Shown one piece after another: positions 27,090 to 56,333 of a DNA stretch of 64,000 bases (within the stretch, counting starts at the first letter, position 1; every line of letters begins with the position of its first letter). A program made the position numbers and the translations under genes. Source of the DNA: Phyto melanocephala (lineage: Eukaryota > Arthropoda > Insecta > Diptera > Rhinophoridae); contig OW799233.1 in NCBI GenBank assembly GCA_941918925.1, forward strand, positions 43,266,275 through 43,330,274. The letters run 5' to 3'. The notes under the pieces were generated by a model that had not been told where the DNA came from, did no database searches, and saw only the letters and a list, made by a program, of their open reading frames with translations.

Positions 27090-28379
27090 CAGGGTGGCTC
27101 AGAAAGACCGAAGTGTGAATTCCTTATAACTTTTTATTTAAGACATATTTTTTTAATTTTTTGTTTTTTAAATACAGTAAATTTATAGGGAATATTTTTA
27201 GATAAGTTATTAAAAATGATATTCCGCAAGTGGTGGCCATTTTCTGCTTCGCACAAATGTGCTCTTTCCAACACATTTTCCATGACCTTTTGCAAAACTT
27301 CCGGTGTTTTGTTGTTAATTTCGTCTCGAATATTGGTTTTTAATTCCTCAATAGTCCTAGGCCTATTAACATAAACTTTCCCTTTTAAATAACCCCAAAG
27401 GAAACAGTCTGGAGAGTTTAAATCCGGGGAAGGCGGAGGCCAATTAAAATTGCTTCTACGCGAAATTATTCTTTCACCAAAAATGTCGCGTAAAAGAGCC
27501 ATTGTGTCCCTCGCAGTGTGCGCTGTGGCTCCATCCTGTTGGAACCATATTTGCGGATGGTTTTCCACGGCTGGCCTTACACAATTTTCTAACATGCTTC
27601 GATATCGATCACCATTCATGGAAATGGCGACACCTCGTTCATTTTCAAAAAAATATGGGCCAATGATTCTTTCTGAAGAAACACCGCACCAAACAGTACA
27701 CTTAACTGGGTGTAATTGTCGTTGATGAAGTACTCTCGGGTTTTCCGTAGCCCATATCCTACAGTTTTGCTTGTTAACGAACCCATTTAATTGGAAATGG
27801 GCTTCGTCACTAATAACTAAGTTATGAATAAAATCAGGATTCTCTTGTGCTTTTTGCTGGAAATAAATTGCATAGTCAAGTAACCTGTCGGTTTCAATTC
27901 TTGGACAAGTTTAATTTTGTATAGAAAAAATTCTTATGGTATGCAAAATTCGCTGCAGCGACCCTCTTGAGAGGCCAAGTTGTGTCTAACGTCTCCTGGT
28001 TGACGTTTCTGGATCCTCCCGAATACTCCCCTGTACCACTTGAATATTGTCAAACGTGTGGACAGTTTGTAGTCTGCCGGAACCAGGAAGGTTCCTTACT
28101 GCTGCTTGTTGTCGAAAATGTGCAACCAGACGGTTTATTGTTGACTGAGAGGGTGTAACCCGCACATTAAATTGACGACGGTATGCACGCTGAGTCAACA
28201 CAATGGACCGTTGATTTGAAAAGTAAATTTCAACGATTTTGGCACGTTGTTCAGTTGTGTATTGCTCCATTATAAATTGTCCAAGTCTTCTTTACAAAAT
28301 ACTGAAAAGAAAAGGAAAAAAAATATAATATAAAAGTTATAAGGAATTCACACCACTTCGGTCTTTCTGAGCCACCCTG
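27090..28379 (-). mobile_element. Full-length mariner element
   Basis: 1290 bp with terminal inverted repeats of about 45 bp that begin CAGGGTGGCTCAGAAAGACC; they differ by one 3-bp indel near base 26. TA flanks each end (27088-27089 and 28380-28381). The transposase frame lies on the minus strand and nearly fills the element. Size and end structure are those of an intact mariner that has lost activity through a few point changes. Confidence 0.95.
27134..28270 (-). pseudogene. Mariner transposase, two in-frame stops
   Basis: 379 codons in one frame. N-terminal part (to 27986) has the helix-turn-helix region QRAKIVEIYFSNQRS, then PSQSTINRLVAHF and PGSGRLQTV. The catalytic part shows SDEAHFQLNGFVNKQN, FQQDGATAHTA and PPPSPDLNSPDCFLWGYLKG. 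I count 36 residues between the second and third aspartates, not the 34 of classical mariners. Stops lie at 27986-27988 and 27911-27913; between them the sequence looks locally shifted relative to the family, then returns to frame. The rest of the enzyme is well preserved, including the C-terminal HHLRNIIF motif, so inactivation seems recent. Confidence 0.92.
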
Positions 28380-32555: not shown

Positions 32556-33279
32556 TTAAATTAATTCTTTAGAAATTTGTCTGGATAACGAAAGATTCGT
32601 TATGCAATCGTTGATGGTTCTTTGCAGATTTCTAATACTCGCGCCTGATTCTTGATTAATGGGTTTAATACTTAAAAGGGTTCGAAGCTGTTCATTTATA
32701 AGCGCCCCTTTGTTTTCATATGTGTCAACCAACTTTTTCCACGCAATCGCATAGCCATCGTTGGTCAACGGAATGGTTTGTATGGCATCATGGGCATCCT
32801 TCGCAGTTTTCTGCAATAAATAATACAATTTCTGTACCGGGGTTAATCGAGGATTATTACCATACAACGCTGAGAACATATCGCGGAATGATGGCCAACT
32901 CTTATAGTCGCCATAGAAAATTGGGGTGTCACACGGGGGTAAATTCATAATAGGGGTGGAATAATTTCCAAGTTCCATGGACTTTTCAGCCTGAGCAGCC
33001 TGTTTCAAACGGTCCAATTGGGCCGTAATCATGGAAACCCCTCGGGTGTATGTGGTATAAGAAGACATATACCTAGATTTTATTTCCACAATATTTGGGC
33101 TTTTCATTCTCTCTGTATCAATCAACAAAGAGTCATATGTTGACCGAACAGCTTCGGTTAATTTCCTTTTCGTGGCTCAATAATGAGCCAATTTTATGGT
33201 CCGCAATGGGTATAAGGGCAATAAAAGCCTCGAATTCCGCCAAACGATCGGCATTACGAATCAATGTAGCCATATCCAT
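32556..33279 (-). pseudogene. BEL/Pao retrotransposon gag, frameshifted
   Basis: Gag-like (DUF1759) frame of a BEL/Pao LTR retrotransposon. It begins MDMATLIRNADRL at 33279 and reads into KIGSLLSHEKEI, where a one-base change shifts the frame near 33165. From about 33150 the second frame carries DSLLIDTERM, LPPCDTPIFYGDYKSWPSF, LTPVQKLYYLL and DTYENKGALINEQL and ends in a stop at 32556. Nucleocapsid, protease, reverse transcriptase and integrase are absent. Upstream (33280-34115) lies unusual inverted and direct repeat sequence instead of a recognisable LTR. Confidence 0.88.
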
Positions 33280-37982: not shown

Positions 37983-38084
37983 TTAAATTTTTAAAATATT
38001 TTATACACTTAAATATGTGTTTTTTTTTCTTCAGATTATAATGTATACAAAATGGAAATTCTTTTACACTAAGTATTTAAAATA

Positions 38085-38650
38085 ATGCCACTTAAATGAT
38101 TTCCGTTTTCAGCTTTGCAATGATAGGTTCGTTTAAAATCATCATCCATAAAATTATTCAAAATTTTTTGCTGGCGCTCGAATTTCTGCAATAATGTTAG
38201 TCTTGAGTTCAAGCATTATCTTTAAATTGTTTACATATTTATACTCACTCCTTTAAATAAAATAAGTCTCGCGAACGTGCTGGCCAATTTGTTTCTGAAT
38301 TTCTGAAAATTTTTCGCTTTACAAAAATTTGACTTAAAAGTGACATTGTATCTGGGGCAGTGGCTGCATCCTGATGAAATCATATCTCAGGTTTGATTTT
38401 AAAAGCAGGACCTAAAAAATTTTTCATAAATCGATACCACTCTCCATTTACGGTTATAGCCTTTTCATCTTAAATTTCGAAGAAGTAAGGCCTAATGATA
38501 ATTTCAAATGTAATGCCACACCACAATGAACAAATAATCGAACGCAATTGGTGTTGATGAATGGCTCTTCGATTTTCCAAAATCAGCAGTACTGCTTATT
38601 AACAAAGCTTATAGTGTTTTCTGGTTTTAAATTTAAACCCATTAATAGCT
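38085..38650 (-). pseudogene. Mariner transposase C-terminal part
   Basis: Minus-strand translation gives, with stops and shifts, an NKQYC block, TVNGE-like ITVNGEWYRFM, FHQDAATAPDTMSLL (second catalytic Asp), then NWPARSRDL and CKAENGNHLSGIIL. This is the C-terminal half of a mariner transposase; the N-terminal half is at 40682-41165, displaced by the insertion at 38651-40681. Confidence 0.8.
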
Positions 38651-39197
38651 GATTTTACATTTACACTACAAGTTTTGTTAAATCAGGTTTTAACTCACAG
38701 TATGTTCAATAAGTTTTTTTTTGAAAATAAAATCATTGTTGTGGTAGAAATAAGTGTATATCTTGGAGTATTTTATTTTTTAATATTTTTGTTAATATAT
38801 ATTTATTTGACACACTGTATATCAGCTATTTTTCGTTTGTATGAAAAACCAACACAGTCGTAATACAGTTCTGGTCGGGTTAAGAGCTCGCGCATTATTG
38901 CCATTATCGTTTAAGGGCAATCAGGCCCGTCCCTTTTTATCTGACTTCAAGAGTTTTACGTCTCACCTTCGCGTGGTTAATTGTGTGGCGTCGCGTAACT
39001 GTGCTTTGTTTCCAGACTATTCCACAATAAACCGTGTGATGTTATTTTAATTGGATTAACTGGAGAAGTACCAACTTAACTTACAAATTAACAACTGGAA
39101 GAACTTTTATATTTTTAACTAGATGAGTACCAATTAAGCTCATTTACCTGTAACTGGAGGAGTTCTTTAAAACTCATTGTTATTAAATTTGTATACA

Positions 39198-39246
39198 TAT
39201 TACCCTGAAGAAGCTACCCATTGTTTGGTAGCGAAATATTGGTTAC
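39198..39246 (+). ncRNA. Hammerhead-ribozyme-like motif (Penelope)
   Basis: CTGAAGA, one extra A, stem GCTACC/GGTAGC with an 8-nt loop, then GAAA, a 4-nt TATT in place of a full stem III, and GGT that can pair with ACC before CTGAAGA. This matches the minimal hammerheads known in Penelope-like elements. Stem I is only 3 bp, so activity is doubtful. Confidence 0.6.
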
Positions 39247-39383
39247 TAATAAATAATTTTTTATAAAAAAACAAAAAACTTGATCCTAAGCTTGGAAAAA
39301 ATCATATATAAGCAATAAAATATATATCAAGAAATTTAGACGATATATTTTTGTTTTTATTTTATTTATTTTCAATATTTGTT

Positions 39384-39430
39384 TTTTCCCAATATTTCGA
39401 TCAAACTTCGTTGATCATCTATCACTCTTA
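39384..39430 (-). ncRNA. Degenerate hammerhead-like motif (Penelope)
   Basis: On the minus strand stem GATCAA/TTGATC is followed by GAAATATTGGG as in the plus-strand motif, but the expected CTGANGA core reads GTGATAGA. Probably an inactive relic. Same strand as the endonuclease fragment, just downstream of it. Confidence 0.45.
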
Positions 39431-39480
39431 TAATTTAGTCTCTTATTGTTCGGTAAATTAATTATATGTAACAAATCAAG

Positions 39481-40135
39481 TTAGTATCTCTTCTTGTAAT
39501 TCTCCTCTCTCGACAATATTTGTATATTATTAAAGTTTGGCTTATGTCCAGTTACCGTCCAATGGGATGCAAGAACAGTTTTTTGTGAAAGCGGTTTTTG
39601 TGTCGATTTAACGTTAGATTTATGTGATGCCCTCCTTGTCTTTAGTTTTGTTTTTGTAGTACCAACATATACTTTTTTGCATATATTGGACCCGTCTCCA
39701 TTACAGTTTACTTTGTAAACGATTTTAGATTTTTTTTCGTTCTCTAGTTTTGATTTCATATTGTTAAATAATCTATAATTCGTATTTCCAGTTATAAAAG
39801 CCAATTTATTTTTTTTCTCTGTCATAAACGTTAGATCGTTTTAGTCTTTCCGAGAATTTTGGTATATAAATGGCGGATTTATATACTTTGTATTCATTTT
39901 CCATTTTAATATTTTCGTTAAGAAGTTTTTGATTTACCCGTTTCAATAAATCATCAATAGTTTTATTCGGAAAATCATTCGTTTTTAATATATTTTTGAT
40001 TTTTTCTATGTTCGAGATATGAAAACACTGATCACTGATTGATTGATAAAACTCTGTTTATAAAATTGATTGCAGTATTATTAATAATCGTTTTTGGGTG
40101 TTTAGAATAAAAGTTTATTAATCTTCCGGAGCACA
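39481..40135 (-). pseudogene. Penelope-like polyprotein, GIY-YIG end
   Basis: The upstream frame (about 40135 to 39830) reads FYSKHPKTIINNTAINFINR and DDLLKRVNQKLL, the linker after the reverse transcriptase. A frameshift in an A-run near 39820 leads to the frame 39825-39481 with KIVYKVNCNG, KKVYVGTTKTKLKTR, SHWTVTGHKPNFNN: a GIY-YIG endonuclease with the Y-V-G-T-T-K core, and catalytic Arg and His region R-x-x-S-H-K. It stops early after EENYKKRY. In Penelope elements this domain nicks the target for priming. Confidence 0.85.
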
Positions 40136-40216
40136 TTGGTTTTTGATGCTAGTCAAGTTTAAGTTATTTTCTTGTTTTTTTACATTATCAGCTATTTTAA
40201 TCTTTTAACGTGGCAG

Positions 40217-40510
40217 CACAGTGAAACAAGTCGACCGGCTCAGAGCCGATGTCCACGCCGCCGCGGTTTTTGTCGGCTTAAAACGGCTCAAGGGAACCGC
40301 CGTTTTGATCAGCTTCAGTCGACTCAAGAAGAAATTTTCTTCGAAACAGAAATGAAAAATTTACTTAAATATTACCGTTAGATTTTTTTTAAAATTTTTT
40401 AGTGACGTCACTTTGAAATTTTGAGCCGCCGATTTAAATTTGTTATAGCCGCCGCTTAAAAACTGCTCAGCCGCCGCCGCCGAAAATTTTTCTCGGCTTG
40501 TTTCACTGTG
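40217..40510. mobile_element. GC-rich MITE with CACAGTG ends
   Basis: Termini CACAGTGAAACAAG and CTTGTTTCACTGTG are perfect inverted repeats, flanked by GCAG on both sides (40213-40216 and 40511-40514). 294 bp with many GCCGCC/GGCGGC blocks, strikingly GC-rich for this window. CAC termini with a 4-bp duplication recall the Chapaev/CMC group; that is inference. Confidence 0.72.
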
Positions 40511-40681
40511 GCAGCACTAAATTTAATACAACGAATACAAGGTTGTATTTCATACAATCGAACGGGTTAAACGAAATTATTTTATGTATATGGTAAAACC
40601 AGATCTTATCGATTGGTTTTAACGTTAAACCCAAATTTTGTTATAAAACCTTAACTGTTAAAACACTATAATCAAATGAAA

Positions 40682-41165
40682 ATATGATTCATCAGTCATA
40701 ATTAGATTTTGAATAAAATTGATTTCATCTCTGGTCAACTGTTGAAACTGAACAGCAATTTTTAGACGATGTCAATGATCTGCGGGTTTTAATTCTTGCA
40801 CCAGATATGGAAACAACAGTAAATCTTGTTCTCTATAAAAACGCCGTATTGACGTACAAGTTTCATTAACACTTTGCTATACACATTCAAATATTTTCTG
40901 CAGTGCTAATTGAACGTGGTCCACAGGTTCAAGGCAAATCTTTTACGGTGCCATGTTGGTGGTGACAATGCACGAAAAATTGAATGATTGCTTTAAATGG
41001 CGAAATTCTGACGTTTAAATATCGACGATATGCTGGTTATCGATTCTGGTGCTTTATTCAGTTGTCATTCTTTTCATTACTTATTCTCTAAATGTGCATT
41101 TACATATTATAAAAAAAAATTTATTAAATGTTTAAACTTAATGGTGACTTTTGGCCTACCCTGTA
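40682..41165 (-). pseudogene. Mariner transposase N-terminal part
   Basis: On the minus strand: the right inverted repeat (complement of CAGGGTAGGCCAAAAGTCACC) ends at TA near 41165, then MKRMTTE-like start, and later LVQELKPADH, FIQNLIMTDESYFHL (first catalytic Asp). Several stops. The frame resumes at 38650 beyond the Penelope insertion. The left inverted repeat of this mariner was not found. Confidence 0.75.
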
Positions 41166-42076
41166 TGTATGTACAAATGTGCTGTTTATATGTCCATACA
41201 GACATACATTTTACTGGTTTATATTTATATTTGTTTCATTTAAGGACATATTGTTTGTTTGTTTGTTTTTTGTCTATTTAGTTTTTTTCTTGTTCTTTTA
41301 TTATGTTTGACATAGTTGTTGGTATTAACTTTTATTTTTAAATAAATGTTATTATTTAGTAAAACATTATACAACCATAATCTCTTTAAAATATTTATAC
41401 AATTACTACACATACATACATACATAAGTATGCACATACATATGTATATTTGGCGCTTTTTTCTTCTTTTTTTTTTGCTGCTGGTGGCTGATTTAATGCT
41501 TGTTTTTTCTTTGTGTCATAAATGAATCATCACAATCATTTATTTAGTTTTGTTCTTTATTTTTTTTTTCTTATTTAGAATGTCCTTCCATTATTCCTTT
41601 TAGTATTTTTAGTTGGTTTTTTTCCATAGTCATAAAAAATTTAATTTTTTTCCTCCTAATAGAGCAAAAAAACTTTGTATCTATTTAGTTAGTAGTTGTC
41701 GCTGATGCATGAGTATGTACGCGTAGGTTTACTTGTGTGTTATTTTGTTTGTTAGTATGTATGTATTTGCTTTTGCTGAGAAATTTCACTTTGAGTGTGT
41801 AGATGTGTGTGCTGTTAACATTGTTGTTGTGTTAGTTGTAAAAAGAAGTGCTTGCAAATCAGTTTTAACAACATTGTTTTCTTTATCTTATTTCATTTGC
41901 TTCTTTCAACATTTCAGCAAGTTTTTTATGTCTTTAATGCTGGGTTTCTCAATATGATGAGAACTAAGCAAACATTTTAATTTACACAAATTCTGCAAAA
42001 TACTTATAATGTAATTTACTTAATTTAGTTGTCTATTTTTAGAAAATATATTTTACCAAAAAAAAAACACAATTTT
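41166..42076. other. Intergenic, T-rich, TACA microsatellite
   Basis: Short frames 41030-41281, 41128-41310 and 41733-41957 are Phe/Leu/Cys-rich products of T-rich DNA. (CATA)n near 41408. No gene supported. Confidence 0.5.
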
Positions 42077-42839
42077 TATACCCTTCACACAGTGAAAAAG
42101 GGTATATATAGGTTTGTCAATCCGTGTGAAATTTCTACAATTTTCATTTCCGACCCCGTAAAGTATATATTTTCTAAAAGCTTATGAATAGGGGAGTCGA
42201 TTAAGCTCTGTCAGTCTGTCCGTCTGACCGTCTGTCCGTGTGTATGTTGAAATCAACTTTTTGAAGCCCCCCGACATAGGTTGGACGCGGGTAAGGTATT
42301 AAAATATCATAAATATTCGGGAGTAGATCGGTATTGAAAATCAGAAACATCGGTACATAAACAACTGAGATATGAGCAAAAACCCACGACCACCTCGATT
42401 TCTTATTCACAAAAACAACATACATACATACAAACGTGTATACTGGTTAGAGAAAACGTGGCATCGAATCCCAGCTGAGCCAAAAAATTTTTTTAAATTT
42501 TTTTTAAATATTTTTTTTATTTGTTTTTTTATTTTTTATTTAATATATTATTTATATTTTTATTATTATTTTTTATTATTATTTTTTTTTAAATTTTTTT
42601 TTTTTTTTTTAAATGTTTTTTTTTAAATTTTTAAAAAAAATTTTTTTTTTTTTTGTTTTTTTAACATACATACGTGAATTTATAATTTTACAATGGGACG
42701 TTTTTATATATGTATGTTTTTATATGTATGTACGTATTTCATATGGGATGAATGGTGATACAAACTACTGTTATTGCATGACTACACATTGTGAAGGGTA
42801 TATAAGATTCGGCACGGCCGAATATAGCGCTCTTACTTG
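42077..42839 (+). mobile_element. Compact complete Helentron/DINE-1-like element
   Basis: 763 bp with both family ends: TATACCCTTCACACAGTGAA at the 5' end, and GATTCGGCACGGCCGAAT then ATAGCGCTCTTACTTG at the 3' end, each set in T runs. It carries GTCTGTCCGTCTGACCGTC, GTTGAAATCAACTTTTTGAAG and a low-complexity A/T core (42480-42660). The best copy for defining the family's ends. Confidence 0.82.
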
Positions 42840-42874
42840 TTTTTTTGAATTTCTCTTTATAAAAGATTTTCTAT

Positions 42875-43080
42875 TAAATAAGGTGGGCCAAAAGAAGTCA
42901 TCCGATGTTGTTTGGCTCTCATTTTTTTCTAAATGAAAAACTTCGATTCTGTTTTTTGATTATGCTTATTTGAACCTTTAGAACTCAAGTCGAGAAGATG
43001 ATGTCGGCCAAATGGGCGCCGTCACAATTGATTGTTACACGGGCTCGTTTTATGGCATTTTTCATCACTTCGGCGAGAAC
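42875..43080 (-). pseudogene. Mariner-like 3' end remnant
   Basis: Left end AAGGTGGGCCAAAAGAAGTC resembles a mariner terminal repeat. The minus-strand frame nearby reads VLAEVMKNAIKRARV and GAHLADIIF, the conserved C-terminus of mariner-like transposases (compare HHLRNIIF at 27230). The rest is missing. Confidence 0.6.
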
Positions 43081-44844
43081 TATTTAACATTTATTTTAAA
43101 GGTTTTAAAATAAAATATAAAATAATTATTAAAGTAAAAACTAACTTCATTTTCCTTAAAAGTTGAAAAGTAAAATCAAATATAAAAAAATGGTCACCTT
43201 GTACCAATTTGTTCGTCGTTCGCCGGCGTAAGAATAATAAATAAATCTATTGCAGAGTTCGCCGCGTACAGCGAATTTCGACCGACGCTATAGTTGACGA
43301 ATATTCGCGGCGAAAAATTCGTCGTTCGTCACAATTGTGCACCTAGCATTAGTCTGAAATTAAGGTTAAACTATGATGTTGCCACTATTCCTATATACAT
43401 GATGGTAAAGGTATAGAATTCTTTTTTGTTGTTATTGTAGATAATAAGCAATAAAGATAATTTAACGACAAAAAATTTAACTTTAAAACAGTTGATTTAA
43501 AAATCTTTGGGAAACACAGATTTTATGTGATTTTTTTCTAAGATTTTTTTGTCTTAAATGTAGCCTAACTAAGTGACTGACTGCCAAACATATAAAACCT
43601 TTAAGTTAAGTTTTTAAAAACTTTTATGTGTTTTTTAAGTTTTTTAACATTTTTGAGCAGCTGAGCCTGACCCTGGGGTAGGGGCAAACTGTTGGAAAGT
43701 TGAAGAATTAAATTATTATTCTTTTAATGTAAAAAATAATGAAATAAGATTTTTTTTAGCAATTTTTGGAAAGTTAAAAATGTAATTTATTTTTGAAAAT
43801 TTTAAATGGGTCTAAGCACAGGAAACTTTCTTATAGTCAATATTTAACAAACGTTTAAGTTAATGTGAAAACGTTTAAGTTGTTAAGTTAAAATTACCCT
43901 CTATATCTTTGAGATTATTCTTTTATTTTTGCAAATGTCTATCATAAATAAAACAAAGTATTTCATACCAGTTTAAAACAAATTATGATTGACGGTAATT
44001 ACTTTTTAACTGTGATTTTTAACTGTAGTTTGAAAAATGTAACAAAGTTTTTAATATCCTTTTCCTCCTCTGCTCGTTACAGTCAAAAATGTCATTTCAT
44101 TTTGAGTTTGTCGTCATCAGCAAAATGGGAAATTCAACTGCAATCGAAAAGAAGCTACAGTTTAAATAACAACTGAAACTAAAAACTACAACTAAAACTA
44201 CAATTTAAAACAAAGTACACCGAGGTAACAACTAAAGTTAACAATTGTTGCTGGATTATAAAAAAAAAACAAACCAACAACAAATTTATCATAAGAACTA
44301 AAAGGAAACTTCTTACACCAACTACATACTTACTTGCTACTACAACAAAGAGCAAATAATAACTGTAAAACAATAAAACTATGCAATAGCTAAATAAATT
44401 TTTTTTACAACAATAACAACTACACCAACTACCACCAATGCTGGAAACCACATAAAAAAGCGCTTTTTATTTACAATGTTTAAGTCTAGATTTTGTAGCT
44501 AAAAATATTGAGGCAAGAGTAAGAACAACGGAGTTGGAGAAAGAACAAAAAGAAAACGAATTTAAACTTTTTAATTACGGCCAAAATTACAATTAAAAAA
44601 TACAAAGAAAAAATAGAAGAAATAAACAAGTAAACAAATCACATTTCCCAAAAACAAACAGCAGCCAAAAAAACCAAAATCCCATTTAATGTCAAAATTC
44701 TAACAGAAACATCATTCTGCAACAACCTCAAAGCCCTTCTCAATCTCTTCCCCCAAGCTAACAGTTTGCATAAGAGTGAGGAGGTGTCAGGAAAAACGCA
44801 ACCAGATTAAAATACAAATATTTAGCAAAATTGTTTAAATAAAT
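43081..44844 (+). other. KChIP 5' flank and probable 5' UTR
   Basis: No conserved frame. From about 44120 the sequence is A/C-rich with AACAACTACAACTAAAACTAC-like runs, typical of insect 5' UTRs, and leads into the KChIP start. No TATA box or initiator can be fixed from sequence alone, and an upstream noncoding exon is possible. GTTCGTCGTTCGCC-type GC patches at 43210-43335 are unexplained. Confidence 0.45.
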
Positions 44845-45000
44845 ATGGCTTCGCCACCTGAGAGTCCCATTGAGGAGGTGGTTTATGAACTAGAACAAAC
44901 ACGAGTGCCTAAACCAATACCCGTTGCTCTAGAGGATTTGTGCCGTCAAACGAAATTTACAAAACAGGAAATACGTGTCATGTATAGAGGATTTAAAACC
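44845..45000 (+). CDS. KChIP: KChIP exon 1
   Basis: 52 codons, phase 0 at the end. Encodes the isoform-type N-terminus MASPPESP and the conserved YRGFKT. Donor ACC|GTAAGT. Read-through into the intron gives a spurious 40-residue tail derived from the Helentron 5' end. Confidence 0.95.
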
Positions 45001-48000
45001 GTAAGTTTTGCTTTCTCTCTCTTTTATTTATTTATTTTATTTTTTATACCCGCCACCAAAAAAATGGTGGGGGTATATTCATTTTGTCATTCCGTTTGTA
45101 ACACATCGAAATATCCATTTTAGACCCCATAAAGTATATATATTCTGAATCAGGGTTTGATTTGATGACGATCTAGCTATGTCCGTCCGTCTGTCCGTCT
45201 GTCCGTCTGTTGAAAGCACGATAGAGGTCGCACCGAAATAGCTAGGGGGCTCAAATTTTGCCAGAATCTTTCTTATAGATAAGGTTTGTTTGGTATTGAA
45301 AATGGGCTAAATCGGAATATTAGGAAGAGAGTTATAGCTCGAAAAGCAAGAGTAGGTCGAAAAAACCGTGTCCTACGAACATCGAATAAAATGGAATTGT
45401 GTCCAAACGGATTAACGTAGACTCATGAAACTTCGAATATATATTTCCTGAGTAAAAACAATATTATTCCCCAAAAATTATCTAAATCTATGCATTAGGA
45501 GAGGAGTTATCGATCAAAATGTACGAAAATTTATACCGCACAGTGTATTTTTCGGTATATTTAAAAACAAAAACGTCATAAAAGCAACAAAATTTGATGT
45601 ACGACTCTGAAATTTTGCACATTTTGCTTTTTGGTGAGGGGCTTTTTTGTAACGGAAAATCAATATGCCACGCCCACTTTTACGCCCACCTCCCATATAA
45701 CGTTTTACCTAAAATTCATATAATTTCTCTATTAATAAAGATTTTGGAATAATAAAGGGCTATATTGAAACACCTTAGTTGTACTCATTCGCAAAAATAA
45801 CTTTGACACGCCTACTATAACGCCCACTTTTTACGTTATCCACCGTTAATGAAATTTAAAAGCTCATAAAACCACCAATATTAGAGGTATGATGATCAAA
45901 TTTGCTAGGTATATCCCCCTAAGCAATGTCATTACTGTGCCAGAAAATTAAGGTGCCACGCCCACTTTTACGCCTACCTCCCATATAACGCTTTACCTAA
46001 AATTCATATAATTTCTCTATTAATAAAAATTTTGGAATAATAAAGGGCTATATTGAAACATCTAAGCTGTACTCATTCGCAAAAACAACTTTGACACGCC
46101 TACTATAACGCCCACTTTTCACGTTATCTACCGTTAATGAAATTTAAAAGTTCATAAAACCACCAAAATTAGAGGTATGATGATCAAATTTGCTACGTAT
46201 AGCCCCCTAGTCAATGTCATTACTGTGCCAGAAAATTAAGGGGCCACGCCCACTTTTACGCCCACCTCCCATATAACGCTTTACCTAAAATTCATATAAT
46301 TTCTCTATTAATAAAAATTTTGGAATAATAAAGGGCTATATTGAAACATCTAAGTTGTACTCATTCGCAAATACAACTTTGACACGTCCACTTTAACGCC
46401 TACCTCCCATATAACGGTTTATCTTAAATTCATGTAATTTCTCTATTGACAAAGTTTTTTGGAAAATAAACGACTATATTGAAATATCTAAGTTGTATTT
46501 ATTAGCAGACTCTTTATTGACACGCCTACTTTAACGCCCACTTTCATTGAAAGACTACATTTACAAAAGCATTTTAGTAGCATATCGAAGTATCTGATGC
46601 TACAAATTTTCAATGACAATGTTGATGCTCAATTGCTGGGCATGATGATGAGGTCATGTTGACTGCTCTTTTGCCACACTATAGCAAAAACCAGCAGTGG
46701 TTCCCATTCAACGAACTAAGAAGGCAGGATTATGTTGATCAAAAGAATTACGAAGTGCATAAAATGCATTTTGTTTTGAACGCCCATTTTCACAAAAAAA
46801 CCTGAATATTAAACCTGAAAATTAATTTACAAATAATTAATTAATAATAATTATTTAATTAATTAATTAATAATTAATAATAATGAATTTTCCTGAAGAT
46901 GCTACACGAAGGAGTAGCGAAATATTGAGAATTTAAATACAAAAATTGGATATTTAAATATGAAAATTTAAAAAAATAGATCAAATAAAATAAATAATTA
47001 AACCTGAATAACTTTGACGCGTTGCTCATTTAGGTATCTTTCCACTGTTCAGATTAAGTTAGTCTGAGATTGAGAAATGTCAAATGAAATGCAAAAAAAA
47101 ACTTGTTGCTTATGTGTGGTTCACCTTCAACAGGGGCCCCTAAAAATTAACCACCCTCTATAAAGAAAGTAATACATATTTTATTTTAAAGATATTATTC
47201 CATAGTGATTAACAAAATAATAAATAATGTACTTTAAATGTACACAAAATTGGTGGTGGGTATAAAAGATTCGGCACAGCCGAATATAGTGCTCTTACTT
47301 GTTTTTAATCCATTTCGAATTCATTGTTTGCATTTTGTTTAACGTTTTTGTAAAATTCATCTGCTCGAATGCAGGCAGCCAGTCCGACACTCAGTCATTT
47401 GATGCAGGTTGTTTTAACAACAAAAATATGAAAATCAACGGAAGAGGCATAGAATTAAAGAAATGAAATCATTATTTAAACACATTTTTTATATCCTTAT
47501 GTGCTGTAATACCATGGCTACATATAGATTTGATTGAGCTATGTCTGTCTGTCCTCCCACATGTTGCACAGATCTGTATGTGGATTAATCGTTTTGAAAT
47601 ACTTGCGAATAAATTGAATATTCATATTTTATTACGCAATCTATTGCACTGTAAAATAAACATTCCTCCTTCTTCCTCCTTTTAACCAGATGTTTATGTC
47701 TGGCAGAAGTTTTTTCATCTATCTGCCTCTGTCTCTCTGTCTGATTTGTTCAATTTTTCCTGCCAGCTTTGAAGGGGTTTTTGTCTCCCCTTCGTCTGTT
47801 TTTTCCGCCACATTTTTTCCCCTTGCTCTATTAGAAAATTTATCGAAATCGTTTTCGCTAAAACAAGGAGTGTTGCCGTTGATACTGTACAAGAAGTATC
47901 ATATTTACCCTCGCCTTAGATCTCACTACAGAATAGGAGAATGTCTTCATTAGCAGCTTGTTCTCTTGTTCTGTCGCGAGCCTCCTATATTTGCCATTAA

Positions 48001-49648
48001 TTAACTCAGTTGTTAATTAACTTGTTTGCTGCATACTGGATTTGATTTGAGAACGTCATCTTAGATCCAAGTCTCATACCGTGGTAGTTAGGTTAGGTTT
48101 GGTTGAAAAGGAGGAATGGAAAACGGAATTCCCAAAACAAAAACCATAAACATAATTTCCCATAAATAACGGACTAGTCCAAGAACCCAGTCCCCTCAAT
48201 GTAACGCCTTATGGATCTCCAGTTCGAGTTCCCCAGGTATTCCAAGTTCGGCATAGTATCCACTGTAAAATTCTCGCGCCAAATATGCCCAAACGCAGGA
48301 CAGTGACAGAGGTAGTGTACCAAAGTCTCATCCTCTTCCTCGCATGCTCTACATGTTGTCTCCTCAGATAATCTCATGCGAGCTAGATGGGTTCTCAACT
48401 CCGTATGACCTGTAATTACACTGGTTAGGTTCCTAAGTGTTGGTCTACTTAGTTTCAGAATCTCTTTTGATTTCCCAAGATTTGGGTCACCCCATAATGC
48501 TCTTGTCACCTTATTGACATCAGTGCTTTGCCATTTTCTGACATGTTCCTTCATCGCCCAACGTTTAAGTTCATCCTTAAATTGTTTAAAGGGTTTAGCA
48601 TTCTCCAAAGTTATAGTACTCAGAAGAGCTCCCATTTTGGATAATTTGACGGCTTTCTCGTTACCGATAAGCCCGAAATGCTAAACCGTGGTAGTTAACA
48701 TATGCACTTGTTTGTATCGAAATCTCCTCTATATCAATGTATATTTCCATAGATATACGTCTTTTTTGTCAAAAGGAGTAGTTCGGTCCTTTGAATTTCC
48801 AGCTGTAGTCCATGAGCGTCAAGCCATGTCTTCGTTCTGGTCATGATCAACCTCAGTTTCCGTTTAGCCCTTTCCGTGTCCCTAACACTCGTCCTCGTAG
48901 CCCATTGGGAAAGTCTCCTGTAGCATTTCGAGCCTTGTATATTATCGAAGGTGACGCTCCATAAGTCTTAACTAAGAATTGATTACTGAACAGCACCAGA
49001 TGTTACTGCTGCTTTTTTTTGTCCCACATTTGTGTTATATATGAGTTCGCTGTCCTTGAGGTAGCTTCTTTTTATACGTGACATATATTTCGGAATACGT
49101 GTTTCTAAGACTCGAAGAACCTCCGGTCATCTTAGGTTCAGCATGACTAAGGGAATGAGTGGAAATTGAGAATGCACTGCCAACTTTTCTAATCACGAAA
49201 TTGTAAAGTCATGAGAGCTCAATATGAATAAAAATTAATTCTGAATTTTAATTGAATATCAAGTGCAAAAATCTAAAAATTTTAACTTTTTTTAATGGGC
49301 GTGGCACTGCCCATTTTTCTAATCACGAAATTATATATTCATGACAGCTTAATATGTGTGTGAAAAGTTTCAGAAAAATCGGTCCAGTGCAAGTACCTCC
49401 AAATTATAACCTTTTTTATGGGCGTGTCCCCGCCCACTTTTCTTATCACGAAATTATAAAGTCATGACAAGTCGGTCAAGTGCAAGTAGCTAAAACAGAT
49501 AACTAATTTTTTAGGGCGTGGCCCCGCCCACTTTTTTCCACCCATAAACACTCCCTGGTATGAGTACAACAACTTGCCAAAGTTTGAGTCCGATCGGTTT
49601 TACAGTTTCGAAGTCTATAGCTAACACACACACACTGAGTTTTACTTT

Positions 49649-49741
<93 letters not shown>

Positions 49742-52700
49742 TCGATAACACCATTAATAATGACAGTAATTCTACAGTTGCCGTTTAGTCTTAATTAAAC
49801 ATTTTTATACGAAAAAAAAAAATAAAAAATAAAGAATATAGTTGATAACAAAGTAAATTCCGAAGTTTATAAACAAAATTTGCGTTTTCACTATGAACAA
49901 ATAATTTTATTGTGGACATTCCTTTCCGTTTCTGAACATCTGCTACTTAAATCCCCGTTTGTGTAAACATCATACACTTGAAACAATTGCACAAAAACGA
50001 ACAATCCTCCTGAGATTTTTCTTTTGCATGTAAACAAATGCAAATAATCTACACAAGATGTTAATATTACTAATGCATTTTTGTTGTATTTCTAAGCTCA
50101 TTAAATAAATAAATAAGTAGATCGAATATACTTGGCATCACCGCCTTGACGGCTTCCTTTAAAAAATGTTGCATCCGCTGTGTTGTTCTCATATCACTTC
50201 TATCTCTTTCTTCGTTACAGGAATGTCCTGAAGGTGTGGTGCACGAAGACAGTTTCAAGGATATTTATGCAAAATTTTTTCCACATGGCAGTAAGTAAAC
50301 ACGCAAAAAACACAGTCACACAAACAAATACATGTTTTTATTTTGTGAATTTTTATCGCTGGTTAAATAGATGTGTACTAAGAAAAAAATTGTATGTGAA
50401 AACAAACAGCATTAATGCATGTGCGACAGTATGACCTTGATATAAGACATGTTTATATTAACACGAATATAACTAAAGTCCTGTATAATTTTACCGAGGT
50501 TCTACTGTCTATCGAAGCCACAAAAAAAGGTTCATGCCTTATCGCTAATGCTATTACACATGCACATGTTGGTACAACTCTTTCTTTAAATATTTATTTT
50601 AAATCATTTTTTTCTTCTTCTCACTCTATTATAGATTCAAGTTTATACGCTCATTATGTGTTCAAAGCGTTTGATGTGAACTGCAATGGTGCCATCAGTT
50701 TTCGGGTAATAAATTTTGTTTTATTTTATTTTTATTTTTTCATATCTTTTAATATCAACATAAATATTGGTTTATTGGTTTAAAATATGTTTTTACTTTT
50801 GTTGTGTATTTGCTGTTATTTTTAGGATTTATTGGTGACATTGTCAACATTATTACGTGGTTCAGTTTACGAGCGTTTACGTTGGACATTTAAGCTTTAC
50901 GATTTGAATGGTGACGGTCGCATCAGTCGTTCGGAGTTGAGTGAAATTGTCTTGGCCATACACGAACTGATGGGTCGGAGGGCACATCAGCCGGAAGATG
51001 ATCGAAAAGCCAGAGATCAGGTTAGTGATGACTGACACAAATTTTTTTTCGAACCACCTTAACGCACACCTGTCAGGAAATATAAAAACAAAAGTCCGTG
51101 TATTTTTCAAAAATATAGAAACACTTTAAAAATATTAAATACAAATAATTATTCAAAATTTTAAAAATTACTTAGACGATAAAATATTTTATTAATTTTC
51201 CTTTTCATTTTTCTTTTAAAATAAATTTGGTTTTGCTACTTAAGCGAATATTAGAAAAAATAATTTGAGGGAAAATGAAAGGTTTTGGTAGATTTGGCCT
51301 GTTTTTTTAGGAAAATTATTTTCGCTGTGGCATTCCTGGTTGTGCTGGACTTCAATTTTTAATATCAATCTAAAGAGATAACAAATTAAGCGAAATCCAA
51401 TTCAAAATCCAAACTGAATTTTTTTGACTTAAAACTTTTTTGCTTATCTTCAAACAATTATTCCCTTTTCACAGTTGGCAAATTACAAGGCAGACATTTT
51501 TTTTTTTAATTTTTTGTTAAACTTGCCTAAAGTTTTCACACTTGAGATATTATAAGGCAAATAAATTGTTACTTTTCTTTAGTTTTTCTTATTTAAACAT
51601 AAGAATCAAACTTTTAGCAAGAATAAGAAAATTAACAAAACCTTGGATGTATATTCAATAGGTTTGTAAAACACCGAACTATGATTTTCTTTCATAGGGT
51701 TAGTTATTCAACATTTCAGACCACCAGAGCTGTCTTCTTTCTTTCTTTTCTTTTGTATTTACTCGGTCCTCGATCGACTGAAATCCTCGAATTTTTATGC
51801 CAAGAATCCTTACATCTGATTTTGAAAGATCGTTTATCGTGAGTATCGCAAGACTGTGGAATATTTTGCCATATTCTCTACGTATTTTTTTTCAATCAAT
51901 AATAATGTCTTCCGTTAAAAGCCTTTAGAATTTTTACCATTATCTACTTAACGACATCGTCTGGATCCGTACATACATACAAACATACAATACTAATGAA
52001 GTAAGTCAACTTGAATCATTATTCATTATTTCGTTGAATTATATGCATTCAAACTTATTGAAAAGTCTTCACTACTTATACGCACTTTTAAATGAAATGT
52101 ACTTAAAGTACTCATATTCATCAACACGTATTACTCAGTTGATTAATATCGCCGTTCACGCAAGATAAAAAGACGACCAAAAGAACGTATGACTCGCGTA
52201 CTCATTATGAAGTTGTGTGTTTTAACTAGGCTTGCCAGATTGTTATTGTTAAAAAACATAGACAATTTAAATTTAACAAAACAATACAAACACAACAAGC
52301 AAAAATAAAGTGCTTGCTTTGATATCTGTTAAAGAGATTTAGATTTTTTATATTTTTATATTAGGCTATAAGTTCTATGTGATAATGACAGAATATCTAG
52401 GAAAAGTTAGTCATCCGATACTAGCTGAGTGGAATGCATTTTCGAAACCAGCTACGGTTTCATCATCAGCACTCTTTTGATCAGAGCTACAAATGTTGTG
52501 TGTAAATATCAACTATTTAACTCAGTATTTATTGAAATTTGAAATATAGAATTATTTGTTCTAATTGATTTATGTATTTCATATAACATTGAGTTAGTAC
52601 GAAATCTACCAACATCTGTTTTTCCTGTATTCTTTTTGCACGTCATTACCACAGGTAATTAATAGTTGCCTTTAGCTACAGATCCACAGATGTCGCTAAA

Positions 52701-55491
52701 GCAATTTTTTTTGCAATTATGCAGTTTCATTATATGTCACATGTGTTCTAAACAAGATGGTATTAGCTGAACAATGTTTTTATTTTTACACCATGCCCTG
52801 TGTTTGTTGTATTTTTAAAGTATTACATTTGAACTTTTTAATTTGTATTATATTTTTATATTAGGCTATAAGTTCTATGTGATAATGACAGAATATCTAG
52901 GAAAAGTTAGTCATCCGATACTAGCTGAGTGGAATGCATTTTCGAAACCAGCTACGGTTTCATCATCAGCACTCTTTTGATCAGAGCTACAAATGTTGTG
53001 TGTAAATATCAACTATTTAACTCAGTATTTATTGAAATTTGAAATATAGAATTATTTGTTCTAATTGATTTATGTATTTCATATAACATTGAGTTAGTAC
53101 GAAATCTACCAACATCTGTTTTTCCTGTATTCTTTTTGCACGTCATTACCACAGGTAATTAATAGTTGCCTTTAGCTACAGATCCACAGATGTCGCTAAA
53201 GCAATTTTTTTGCAATTATGCAGTTATGCAATTATGCATATAATGAAACTGCATAATTGCAAAAAAAATTGCTTTAGCGACATCTGTGGATCTGTAGCTA
53301 AAGGCAACTATTAATTACCTGTGGTAATGACGTGCAAAAAGAATACAGGAAAAACAGATGTTGGTAGATTTCGTACTAACTCAATGTTATATGAAATACA
53401 TAAATCAATTAGAACAAATAATTCTATATTTCAAATTTCAATAAATACTGAGTTAAATAGTTGATATTTACACACAACATTTGTAGCTCTGATCAAAAGA
53501 GTGCTGATGATGAAACCGTAGCTGGTTTCGAAAATGCATTCCACTCAGCTAGTATCGGATGACTAACTTTTCCTAGATATTCTGTCATTATCACATAGAA
53601 CTTATAGCCTAATATAAAAATATAATACAAATTAAAAAGTTCAAATGTAATACTTTAAAAATACAACAAACACAGGGCATGGTGTAAAAATAAAAACATT
53701 GTTCAGCTAATACCATCTTGTTTAGAACACATGTGACATATAATGAAACTGCATAATTGCAAAAAAATTGCTTTAGCGACATCTGTGGATCTGTAGCTAA
53801 AGGCAACTATTAATTACCTGTGGTAATGACGTGCAAAAAGAATACAGGAAAAACAGATGTTGGTAGATTTCGTACTAACTCAATGTTATATGAAATACAT
53901 AAATCAATTAGAACAAATAATTCTATATTTCAAATTTCAATAAATACTGAGTTAAATAGTTGATATTTACACACAACATTTGTAGCTCTGATCAAAAGAG
54001 TGCTGATGATGAAACCGTAGCTGGTTTCGAAAATGCATTCCACTCAGCTAGTATCGGATGACTAACTTTTCCTAGATATTCTGTCATTATCACATAGAAC
54101 TTATAGCCTAATATAAAAATATAATACATATTAAAAAGTTCAAATGTAATACTTTAAAAGATTTAGATTTTGTTTTTGCGTATTATATTTAAATTCAAGT
54201 GAGCACCTAAAAACGTAGTTTTTTAATTTGTTGCAAAAAATTTTAATTAATTTTTTAATAAAAACTCAAAATAACTGTTATTGTTTACCTCTTATTATAG
54301 AAGATAACCAAAACCTACCCTAAAGGCCATAATCAGTTGCATTTATTTAAAAATTAAATAGTGATACTTGCAAAAATTGTATATTACACATTGTAAAATT
54401 GAAAATTTTCTGGCGGCCAAAAAATATCTTGCACTCTCCGACCTGGCAACATTGTTTATTCTTCATACAAATGAGACATGGTACAATTATCAGGTAGCCT
54501 CACTAAAACAGCTGATTTTTTTTTTCTCTACCTTAAGATTTAACTAAAATGTCAAATTTTGTTTATGTATTTGTATATATTGTGTACGTATATATTCTAC
54601 CGCCAAAAAAACACGCACACATATTTGCTTTTTGACATTTAAGTCGTCGTTTTCCAACAACAAAATACATGTAGAATTTTGTTGTTGCAGAACTGAGGCT
54701 ACCTGATGATTGTACCATGATAGATACTAACTCTAACAACGTCAAAATTTTTTTCTATTTCTAACAACGTCAAATTACATTTGTGAAAAGAGATGGATAT
54801 TAAAATTGAAAAATTGGCAGCCCTGTTAATCGTAAAACAGTTATAGTTGGATTAATGGCTCTCGAATCACTGTCTTCTATAGTTTTGCATCTCATTCCCA
54901 TTTTGGTACAAAATGTCAAAGACAGAAATGCCATATAAAAAAAATTGTAGCCAAATTACTTAGAAATTATCACCAAAGTGTCAAAAAATAAATAAACAAA
55001 AGTACATTTCCCAATTTTATGGCACATTTTTTTATTTGATATGCTGCTTTAAATGTGTGTTTAATTCATTTTTCACCTATGAAATACTTGCAAAGTGTAC
55101 TCTTTTTGAACAAAAAATAGTTGGTCACCTTAGTTAGATAAATGATTTTACATTCAACTTTTGTGGTTCTAATCAATAGAATGCTGTAGATGAAAATTGG
55201 TGAAAGCCGGGTGTGTAAATGAAATTATTTAATGAGTGTCGGGAAATATTTTATTTTTTTTTAAATATTATTATTTATTTTAACATAAAACAATACATAG
55301 AAGAGATATTTTGATTTTGTCAACTATGAATTTTATTTAACATGTTTCTCTTATTTGCTTAGGTCGATCGTGTTTTTCGCAAACTGGACTTAAATCAAGA
55401 TGGTATTATAACAATTGAAGAATTTCTAGAGGCATGCCTTAAAGACGATCTAGTCACAAGATCTTTACAAATGTTCGATAATGACCTTTGA
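44845..55491 (+). CDS. KChIP: Kv-channel-interacting protein (KChIP)
   Basis: Five exons join to a 206-residue EF-hand protein of the neuronal calcium sensor/KChIP family, which binds the N-terminus of Kv4 (Shal) channels and tunes their trafficking and inactivation. Exons: 44845-45000, 50221-50290, 50635-50705, 50826-51020, 55363-55491; all introns are GT-AG. After a short unique N-terminus (1-40) come [14 protein letters not shown], a degenerate EF1 with the CPEG signature (54-57), EF2 loop 89-100 (ends Asp, not Glu), EF3 loop 125-136 ([12 protein letters not shown]) and EF4 loop 173-184 ([12 protein letters not shown]). EF3 and EF4 have full calcium ligands. No Gly2 for N-myristoylation. 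Ends [10 protein letters not shown], matching the family. The start is the first ATG of the frame and gives the usual insect length. It is the only intact host gene seen. The orthologue in Drosophila is, from memory, CG5890. Confidence 0.95.
46560..47159 (+). mobile_element. TA-type MITE remnant with Penelope insert
   Basis: The right end CCCCTAAAAATTAACCACCC with following TA near 47159 and the interior GATGCTCAATTGCTGGGCA...TTTTGCCACACTATAGC match, in reverse, the MITE at 5871-6352. The left end is not recognisable. Confidence 0.6.
46886..46933 (+). ncRNA. Hammerhead-ribozyme-like motif (Penelope fragment)
   Basis: AATTTTC pairs with GAGAATT (7 bp, one G-U) as stem I; between them are CTGAAGA, an extra T, stem GCTAC/GTAGC, GAAA and TATT. 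Same layout as the motif at 39198. Transcribed in sense within KChIP intron 1. Confidence 0.6.
48091..48684 (-). mobile_element. 5'-truncated LINE, 13-bp TSD
   Basis: Flanked by ACCGTGGTAGTTA at 48078-48090 and 48685-48697. Holds the end of an RNase H domain, the C-terminal zinc-knuckle region of ORF2 and a short 3' UTR ending in a CCTAACC tail. A second copy is at 63789-64000. Typical target-primed insertion truncated at its 5' end. Confidence 0.93.
48174..48677 (-). CDS. LINE ORF2 C-terminus (partial)
   Basis: Open frame with no start of its own. It begins [15 protein letters not shown], the last motif of a ribonuclease H domain (H-x-G-x-x-G-N-E-x-A), then [38 protein letters not shown] (a C-x2-C-x7-H-x4-C zinc-binding motif) and ends EGTGFLD. 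This order is that of RNase-H-bearing LINEs of the I/R1/Jockey group. The remaining piece is intact, but the reverse transcriptase and endonuclease are lost by 5' truncation. Confidence 0.88.
   Translation of the reverse strand, partial: FGLIGNEKAVKLSKMGALLSTITLENAKPFKQFKDELKRWAMKEHVRKWQSTDVNKVTRALWGDPNLGKSKEILKLSRPTLRNLTSVITGHTELRTHLARMRLSEETTCRACEEEDETLVHYLCHCPAFGHIWRENFTVDTMPNLEYLGNSNWRSIRRYIEGTGFLD
49160..49640. repeat. Degenerate tandem repeat with CGCCCACTTTT motif
   Basis: Three to four units of roughly 120-150 bp, each with GGGCGTGGC/GGGCGTGTC, CCCATTTTT/CCCACTTTT, TCACGAAATTAT and TCATGA. Followed by TTTGAGTCCGATCGGTTTTAC. Probably the internal part of a rolling-circle type element whose core is the adjacent microsatellite. 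Confidence 0.65.
49651..49741. repeat. (GATA)n microsatellite
   Basis: About 22 uninterrupted GATA units. Translation of this run creates the spurious SIYLSIYL frame on the minus strand. Confidence 0.97.
50221..50290 (+). CDS. KChIP: KChIP exon 2
   Basis: Acceptor TTCGTTACAG|GAA, donor GGCA|GTAAGT. 23 codons plus one base. Holds the calcium-free EF1 ([20 protein letters not shown]). Confidence 0.95.
50635..50705 (+). CDS. KChIP: KChIP exon 3
   Basis: Acceptor TCTATTATAG|AT, donor TTTCGG|GTAATA. 71 bp completes the split Asn codon and restores phase 0. Encodes [10 protein letters not shown] and most of EF2 ([10 protein letters not shown]). Confidence 0.95.
50826..51020 (+). CDS. KChIP: KChIP exon 4
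   Basis: Acceptor TTATTTTTAG|GAT, donor GATCAG|GTTAGT; 65 codons. Encodes [18 protein letters not shown], the EF3 loop and the inter-EF linker with [12 protein letters not shown]. Confidence 0.95.
51780..51960 (+). pseudogene. LINE C-terminal remnant in intron 4
   Basis: The frame [14 protein letters not shown] near 51845 resembles the R-T-x-R-L-W-N-S-L-P motif near the end of many insect LINE ORF2 proteins. Flanking frames are broken. Short and weak on its own. Confidence 0.45.
52415..52484 (-). ncRNA. Hammerhead ribozyme candidate 1
   Basis: Reverse-strand copy of the motif described at 53489; identical core and stems. Confidence 0.72.
52915..52984 (-). ncRNA. Hammerhead ribozyme candidate 2
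   Basis: Exactly 500 bp from candidate 1 and identical. With candidate 1, cleavage at both sites of a minus-strand transcript would release a unit-length RNA. Confidence 0.72.
53489..53558 (+). ncRNA. Hammerhead ribozyme candidate 3
   Basis: Type I layout. Stem I: GAGTG pairs CACTC and, beyond an internal loop, CTGAT pairs ATCGG (one G-U). Core CTGATGA is followed by one extra U, then stem II GAAACC/GGTTTC with loop GTAGCT, then GAAA. Stem III is reduced to the self-complementary ATGCAT, then UC at the predicted cleavage site before CACTC. Such minimal stem III hammerheads are known from Penelope-like elements and are thought to act as dimers. The extra base after CTGATGA is the main deviation. 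Confidence 0.75.
53988..54057 (+). ncRNA. Hammerhead ribozyme candidate 4
   Basis: Identical to candidate 3 and 499 bp downstream on the same strand, in sense with the KChIP pre-mRNA. Confidence 0.72.
54477..54719. mobile_element. MITE with 26-bp inverted repeats
   Basis: Ends CATGGTACAATTATCAGG and its complement (one mismatch), continuing through GTAGCCTCA. 243 bp, noncoding. No target duplication recognised, so unassigned. Confidence 0.7.
55363..55491 (+). CDS. KChIP: KChIP exon 5
   Basis: Acceptor TTTGCTTAG|GTC; 42 codons and TGA at 55489-55491. Encodes EF4 and the C-terminal helix [18 protein letters not shown] that packs against the channel-binding groove in KChIPs. Confidence 0.95.
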
Positions 55492-56333
55492 TGACCCGCT
55501 ACCGACTATGAAATACGAAATAATCGTAACACAATATCTTTAATAGATCTTTAAGCATCAGCAACAATAATAATAATAACAGCAAAACAAGCAACATAGA
55601 AAAAATTTTACAAAAGAAATTATTAAAAAACAAATATTGTTACTTTAAGTAAATATTTAAAATTAATAATTAAAAAAAAAACATAAAACAAAATAAACTT
55701 GAAAAAAATAAGCAAAAAACTAATAAAACCCCAAACAAAAATGTAAAGGAGAGAGCTCATACACCAGTAAAAAAATATTAGTAATATTTTTGTTTAGTAA
55801 AAATTTAATTAAACAAAAAAAATAAATAAAAACAATTTTTAGATAATAATTAAATTGGCATTGATAGAAAATTTAATGAAAAAAAAAACAAATTAAATAA
55901 AAAAAATAAATTAAAAAGAATAATCCTGCCATAATTAAAAATTAAATTAAAATAAAAATCATACTGGCAACTAATAAAAATTATAAATTGTAAATTAGAA
56001 AAAAGAAAAAAATTAAAGACAACCAATTAAACCACCAATTAATTAACATTAACAACCTAACGAATTGAAAAAGCAAACAAATTTTTAATAAATTTAACAG
56101 TTAAAAAAAATTTAATTTAAAAAAATGAAAGCAACTTATTTATAAAATTTTTTTTGAAATTTTTGAGGTTAGAACTGAACCATTGACTTTTGCAAAAAGG
56201 GGCTATATTTAAAATAAGAGGTTTTACATTTAAGTAAGGCAATATTTAAAATTATTTATTTGTATTATTTTAAAGTCTTTAATTACTTGAGGATTGTTTG
56301 AAAGTTCGATTTAAAAAAAAAATGTTTTTATAA
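55492..56333 (+). other. KChIP: KChIP 3' UTR and A-rich flank
   Basis: After the stop comes A-rich sequence with several AATAAA hexamers (for example 55692-55697 and 55722-55727), suited to polyadenylation within about 250 bp of the stop; the site used cannot be told. Beyond about 55900 is AT-rich intergenic DNA. Confidence 0.6.

Follow-up and report, generated by a model that had tools for sequence, protein, structure and literature searches.

A head-to-head insertion of a repeat with a hammerhead layout in a KChIP-like gene of a fly, with arm ends resembling the start sites of Penelope-like elements

Host gene and palindromic insertion

The window analyzed here is the whole 64,000-nucleotide stretch of Phyto melanocephala DNA. 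On its plus strand, five segments hold EF-hand-type or KChIP-like words in stop-free stretches (44839-45120, 50113-50295, 50400-50780, 50826-51032, and 55363-55488). The segment at 50826-51020 has PDB matches among neuronal calcium sensors and therefore alone gives a family-level call. The name KChIP combines the label of a first-pass annotation of this DNA with our own reading, and on sequence grounds we refer to the gene as KChIP-like. At that level, the annotation was right to place the palindrome in an intron of a KChIP gene, given the EF-hand segments on the plus strand and the PDB matches to NCS-1 and KChIP1 (Table 1).

The insertion sits in the last intron of this KChIP-like gene. It spans 1,811 bp (52348-54158) and is bounded on both sides by a 13-bp target-site duplication (TSD), AGATTTAGATTTT. 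Along the plus strand, antisense units with a period of 500 bp are followed by sense units with a period of 499 bp, and the GC content of the repeat is 29.6%. The palindrome coordinates, the tandem-then-inverted order, the 13-bp duplication, and the four hammerhead layouts reported in the first pass are all present. Its description of two 500-bp units followed by the same two reversed captured the tandem and inverted layout but not the detail: each arm is about 1.8 units long, the arms are inexact mirrors, and an 11-nt filler joins them. The right arm extends 34 nt further 3' than the left arm (by BLAST, its 3' end falls one base beyond the tabulated position, inside the TSD). From left to right, the A/T runs have lengths of 8, 7, 8, and 7. 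A mirror would need 8, 7, 7, and 8, so the arms are not strict mirrors; this evidence is weak because homopolymers slip and are misread.

Among 60,000 random place pairs of the 64-kb window, with simple repeats left in, 154 had an abutting direct repeat of at least 13 bases. The 13-bp direct repeat of the flank supports the single insertion event proposed in the first pass. At the junction of the arms, the filler would resemble a product of templated end joining; 117 of 20,000 random 11-mers had at least 9 nt in common with its flanks. We found no stop-to-stop ORF of at least 90 amino acids within 52348-54158. A 68-nt relic of the unit, 78% identical and from near its hammerhead part, lies at 55129-55195 in the same intron as the insertion.

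Table 1. Features of the insertion and the neighboring exons (window coordinates)
Feature	Position	Strand	Remark
EF-hand exon of the KChIP-like gene, upstream of the insertion	50826-51020	+	PDB matches NCS-1 (5.5e-16) and KChIP1 (5.4e-15)
TSD, left copy	52335-52347	+	Exact match to 54159-54171
Left arm, antisense units, 878 nt	52348-53225	-	Sense 3' end at initiation site 1, 84 nt past the predicted ribozyme cut
Hammerhead core, outer left unit (CUGAUGA to predicted cleavage site)	52432-52469	-	Descriptor match at 52469 (-); absent from Rfam results
Hammerhead core, inner left unit	52932-52969	-	Descriptor match at 52969 (-)
Filler of 11 nt joining the arms	53226-53236	+	10 of 11 nt repeat the adjacent left-arm end
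Right arm, sense units, 922 nt	53237-54158	+	3' end at initiation site 2, 118 nt past the predicted cut
Hammerhead core, inner right unit, gene sense	53504-53541	+	Descriptor match
Hammerhead core, outer right unit	54003-54040	+	Descriptor match; predicted cut after 54040
Tail of 34 nt between the two initiation sites, right arm	54125-54158	+	One base unlike the inner-unit copy
TSD, right copy	54159-54171	+	Exact match to the left copy
Last coding exon of the KChIP-like gene, downstream of the insertion	55363-55488	+	EF-hand/KChIP-like words in a stop-free stretch

We folded 52300-54200 (1,901 nt) in gene sense and obtained about -1,515 kcal/mol, with a right-arm partner predicted for 877 of the 878 left-arm bases. 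In silico, transcription through the intron would plausibly yield long double-stranded RNA. The predicted arm-arm duplex absorbs all 76 bases of each sense hammerhead. Because these motifs lie fully inside the duplex, ribozyme cleavage from the window copy within the pre-mRNA is doubtful.

Hammerhead layout of the unit

Every unit reads GAGUG-CUGAUGA-U-GAAACC-GUAGCU-GGUUUC-GAAA-AUGCAU-U-C-CACUC, which is a type I hammerhead layout. The first pass had credited each unit with the full layout. This stands for the conserved core and stems I and II, which are complete in each unit. It does not stand for stem III, which consists solely of the self-complementary AAUGCAUU (a dimer-type arrangement with an intermolecular 8-bp palindrome), nor for the region before stem II, where one additional U lies between CUGAUGA and GAAACC. 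The additional U creates an AUG whose A is core residue A9 (54009); the predicted cut follows 32 nt later. Its frame stops after three codons, and the family is without an ORF beyond the ribozyme AUG.

A hammerhead descriptor found six motifs in the window (52469 and 52969 on the minus strand and 53504, 54003, 39205, and 46893 on the plus strand) compared to one in 600 dinucleotide shuffles. The covariance check against Rfam hammerhead models that the first pass had called for gave no match, either at gathering level in the whole window or at an E value of ≤10 in 52300-54200 and 38000-56000, and Rfam was dropped as proof of a ribozyme. The miRNA-precursor matches in the Rfam listing there arise from the inverted-repeat hairpin. 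Since the descriptor motifs at 39205 and 46893 were also missed, Rfam may be insensitive to this hammerhead class. The ribozyme pattern had 0 matches in viral and prokaryote collections, which is uninformative for an insect element.

The drawn double hammerhead of two molecules reached -36.1 kcal/mol versus -43.5 kcal/mol for the best dimer fold. As a monomer, the motif preferred another fold (-17.2 versus -12.8 for the hammerhead). These energies neither prove nor exclude activity, and judged by its layout the unit motif is a probable self-cutting RNA. In 11 loci that had not been picked via the ribozyme, we counted 0 substitutions at 252 core positions. Selection on the ribozyme core was considered and dropped, as overall divergence is too low for this count to show anything.

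Sister copies and their ends

We searched the window's own genome (739,753,867 bases in 9 contigs) twice with 101-base pieces of the unit and scored the best 40 of 1,129 and the best 40 of 1,080 first-look candidates. The unit is repeated in the genome, as the first pass had expected, with about 1,100 first-look candidates in 740 Mb that are loose matches and not confirmed copies. All 27 loci outside the window from the first list and all 11 new loci from the second were fetched, making 39 with the window copy. A composite array in satellite (L028) was excluded from all counts, which left 38 insertions for examination, with 48 arms: 28 in single orientation and 10 head-to-head. Small or diverged extra blocks of L012, L018, and L035 and the second block of L030 were also set aside, and duplicate places that had been fetched again (L001 to L008) were counted once. 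Every listed match showed 100% identity to its query stretch, and the sample therefore leans to young, near-identical copies. Arm ends were taken from BLAST blocks, with a blur of several bases in A/T runs. The excluded composite, L028 with L036 to L038 (G000:C1:67404000-67433999), consists of unit arrays of about 6.5, 4.4, and 5.4 units, partly inverted, inside satellite; part of its flank is mirrored, and its outermost unit ends lie at 84 and 122.

The 3' ends of the arms fell at two sites. In 46 of the 48 arms from the 38 insertions, the 3' end lay 80 to 98 nt (site 1) or 116 to 130 nt (site 2) past the predicted cut, where the ranges were chosen after the window ends (84 and 118) were known and those two ends are included in the count. 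For the first 34 arms, 32 were within the site ranges versus 2.3 expected. The exceptions are both arms of L010, with ends at 36 and 43. Single copies ended at site 1 in 17 cases and at site 2 in 11. Directly past site 2, the unit carries the AC-rich stretch ATACAACAAACACAGGG. In the anole Penelope-like element (PLE), reverse transcription starts in an AC-rich stem loop 111 to 118 nt into the ORF, the ORF starts at stem II, after C3 and G8, and the ribozyme cuts at 26 nt (PMC11167929). By our own subtraction from these figures, the anole start lies 85 to 92 nt past the ribozyme cut. The 30- to 40-bp tail of that element is the distance between two start sites (PMC11167929). By analogy, the arm ends would be counterparts resembling the two reverse-transcription starts of PLEs.

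The 5' ends of the arms were scattered among the sister copies. Only 1 of 48 lay within 10 nt of the predicted cut (the right arm of L042, at unit position 9), and therefore the template is not usually a cleaved linear RNA that is copied through to its end. Circular templates are possible. In vitro, insertion by the anole PLE was unaffected in ribozyme mutants (PMC11167929). A common RNA 5' end or transcript start, which the window arms could have indicated by stopping about 10 nt apart in unit register, was dropped because of the scattered sister ends. Separately, 10 of the 48 5' ends lay 20 to 50 nt past the predicted cut compared to about 3 expected, and this excess perhaps reflects a reverse transcriptase that stops before the folded ribozyme. 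L023, L031, L045, and the right arm of L029 are almost exactly one unit long (500 to 503 nt), starting and ending near the same initiation site.

The 10 head-to-head insertions are the window copy, L010, L019, L021, L029, L033, L034, L042, L046, and L048. A site-1 arm was joined to a site-2 arm in nine of them, and like was joined to like in none; L010 used neither site. Under independent choice, a mixed pair is expected in 48% of cases, and nine of nine gives a P value of about 0.0013 (0.0027 without the window copy). Every head-to-head insertion had a direct repeat of 10 to 16 bp at its ends, with 10 nt of slack allowed per end in the search, so that TSD lengths may include element bases. 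A TSD of at least 10 bp was present in 10/10 head-to-head insertions versus 6/28 single copies (Fisher's test, 1.7e-5; 4.0e-5 without the window copy). As a control, mismatched end pairs gave 0/90 for head-to-head insertions and 21/756 for single copies. The latter control and the one plain A-run among the six imply that some, but not all, of the single-copy TSDs are probably real.

Arm lengths in the head-to-head insertions ranged from 50 to 1,162 nt. The inner ends differed in unit register by 10 nt in the window copy, 18 nt in L010, 27 nt in L029, and at least 53 nt in the other seven. The arms of L033 had 5 differences over 339 compared positions, and across 2,200 shared positions the ten insertions had 13 unshared and 7 shared substitutions relative to the reference unit. 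Whether one RNA served both arms was dropped as a test because substitutions cannot separate different templates from later mutation.

Origin of the head-to-head copies

The window contains a broken C-terminal fragment of a PLE-type protein (39481-39840 on the minus strand, with pieces to about 40200 and a frameshift upstream). A two-sequence profile of this fragment found 32 relatives at an E value of ≤0.001, the named ones being from the flies Haematobia irritans, Eurosta solidaginis, and Lucilia cuprina. The closest relative found is 61% identical and passes Pfam GIY-YIG; a Pfam scan of the window ORF itself gave no match. Two relatives carry the precomputed label PF26215, which our own Pfam scan did not reproduce. 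The fragment and its relatives imply that PLEs live, or lived, in this genome, and the presence of the fragment in the same window supports a PLE as the agent of insertion. A tblastn search of 35 loci did not reveal an autonomous PLE whose pseudo-LTR matched that of the unit, and the sole PLE-type protein match there (L030) was on the strand opposite to the unit insertion, about 1.3 kb away.

Our main reading, which we hold with a probability of roughly three in four, is that a non-autonomous element of ~500-bp units, apparently without coding capacity, was inserted once, mobilized in trans by a PLE and primed on two strands. The unit would retain a PLE-type pseudo-LTR, that is, a dimer-type hammerhead followed by two reverse-transcription starts about 34 nt apart. 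The PLE enzyme would make staggered cuts, about 13 nt apart, in the two target strands, and each 3' overhang would prime cDNA on the tandem-unit RNA, the tailless product starting at site 1 and the tailed one at site 2. The two cDNAs would then grow inward, stop independently, and be end-joined, with filling of the overhangs giving rise to the TSD. Single copies, mostly without a clear TSD, would represent one-sided events that were repaired otherwise. We infer the PLE enzyme as agent, the two-strand priming, the end joining, and any ribozyme activity. The anole PLE protein, a predicted dimer, cuts and extends both target strands in vitro (PMC11167929). Against this reading we counted the negative Rfam result, the dimer fold that is better than the double hammerhead, the off-site ends of L010, the lack of a matching autonomous PLE among the loci searched, the differences between the L033 arms, and the close inner ends of the window copy, L010, and L029. 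The first-pass idea of a non-coding, ribozyme-type repeat element inserted head-to-head is supported. A ready-made head-to-head dimer that jumped, as also proposed there, is probably not the explanation, given two initiation sites and mostly different inner stops in the sister copies.

For inverted PLE copies in a bdelloid rotifer, self-priming on an antisense template was proposed, and this is the published reading of palindromes at inverted PLE junctions (PMC3846280, excerpts). Applied here, the end of the first arm would fold back (snap-back) and template the second arm. The window copy, L010, and L029, whose inner ends lie within 10 to 27 nt in unit register, are also compatible with such an origin. 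However, the inner ends are at least 53 nt apart in the other 7 of 10, arm lengths vary freely, and the A/T-run order in the window is unmirrored. Moreover, two different outer initiation sites in 9 of 10 insertions are not predicted by self-priming itself. Because the arms start at two PLE-type sites and their inner stops are mostly unequal, they are better read as two cDNAs, one per target strand. The pattern of sites and inner ends thus speaks for priming from both sides rather than the self-priming suggested for rotifer PLEs, and we consider snap-back unlikely.

A metazoan retrozyme would arrive by another route, with circularized hammerhead RNA passing through more than one round of reverse transcription and integrating by any machinery, the head-to-head copies being joined cDNAs. 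The absence of an ORF past the ribozyme AUG, the GC content of 29.6%, the tandem units, the type I hammerhead layout, and TSDs longer than 4 bp all agree with this (PMC7229834, excerpts). The unit of 499 to 500 bp, however, compares to RNAs of ~170 to 400 nt described in the same excerpts, whose list of retrozyme features does not include fixed 3' ends at two PLE-like sites. Also, of the 48 arms, just one has its 5' end within 10 nt of the predicted cut. A retrozyme proper is quite improbable on this evidence, and it overlaps our main reading if PLEs are the integration machinery. Long perfect inverted repeats are a known assembly hazard, and the inverted copy could in principle come from a misjoined read; L028, which is mirrored along with part of its flanks, would fit such an error. 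Yet the two ends of the window copy are unequal, and its flank is repeated over 13 bp in direct rather than inverted orientation. Since each of the nine remaining head-to-head insertions in this genome has its own TSD and arm lengths, an artefact is very hard to credit.

Returning to the PLE-mobilized element, we did not classify it as an autonomous PLE because no reverse transcriptase/endonuclease ORF was found in it. On its sequence features, we file it as a putative non-autonomous PLE-type ribozyme element that would work like a PLE and resembles retrozymes. Penelope/Poseidon-type PLEs (Anolis PAc and Adineta vaga Pen2a with relatives) likewise have tandem and inverted pseudo-LTRs with a TSD, a tail of ~30 to 40 bp on one end only, and a hammerhead with an AUG at stem II (PMC11167929 and PMC3846280, excerpts). 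In PAc, reverse transcription starts, by the subtraction above, 85 to 92 nt past the cut (PMC11167929). The matching features here are the tandem periods of 500 and 499 bp, with tandem units also in sister loci, and the one-ended tail of 34 nt in the window, with one end per site in 9 of 10 head-to-head insertions. Unlike PAc and Pen2a, our element is without a reverse transcriptase/endonuclease ORF, has a unit of only ~500 bp, and carries tandem units in both arms. With metazoan (non-LTR) retrozymes it shares non-coding tandem units with a type I hammerhead layout, low GC content, and TSDs, and it differs from them in its longer unit, palindrome-only stem III, PLE-like initiation sites at the ends, and head-to-head insertions (PMC7229834, excerpts). 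The Penelope elements of heliconiine butterflies are also short, non-autonomous, and Penelope-type, a likeness by description alone, without anatomy (PMC6685494, excerpts).

The origin of inverted PLE copies is unsettled, with the rotifer paper reading them as self-primed (PMC3846280, excerpts). In the in vitro PLE paper, cleavage and extension occur on both strands of the target, and inverted copies are not discussed in the main text (PMC11167929). The enzyme that moves metazoan ribozyme elements has been described as not deducible from their sequences (PMC7761336, excerpts). A family with about 1,100 first-look candidates, two-site ends, one-of-each pairing, and TSDs makes both questions directly testable. 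Inverted pseudo-LTRs of which one bears a tail have been described before (PMC3846280, excerpts); a one-of-each site rule or a TSD contrast was not found stated in the available portions of the open-licence literature searched. The head-to-head sister copies suggest that element RNA was the template at both cut DNA ends, with copying begun at a separate point for each. As a tentative generalization, PLE integration may be two-handed, with two reverse transcriptases per complex and a different start site per strand. The full product would then be a head-to-head pair with a TSD, TSD-poor single copies would be one-handed, and non-coding ribozyme elements would exploit this process, their ends revealing the helper that work on retrozymes had been unable to name.

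Other mobile-element remnants lie on the minus strand of the window at 27134-28291, 32556-33176, and 48174-48680. They comprise transposase-like ORFs (recognized by eye; one was scanned, with no Pfam match), a DUF1759 ORF, and a zf-RVT match below the Pfam cut-off. A degenerate hammerhead-like stretch (39380-39440, minus strand) was seen by eye just past the end of the PLE-type ORF. The plus-strand motifs at 39205 and 46893 also have hammerhead layouts and belong to other sequence families; in each, a single additional base precedes stem II, and stem III is short and palindromic. The motif at 46893 lies between two copies of ATTAAACCTGAA (46808 and 46997), so the stretch at 46808-47008 may be a small solo insertion.
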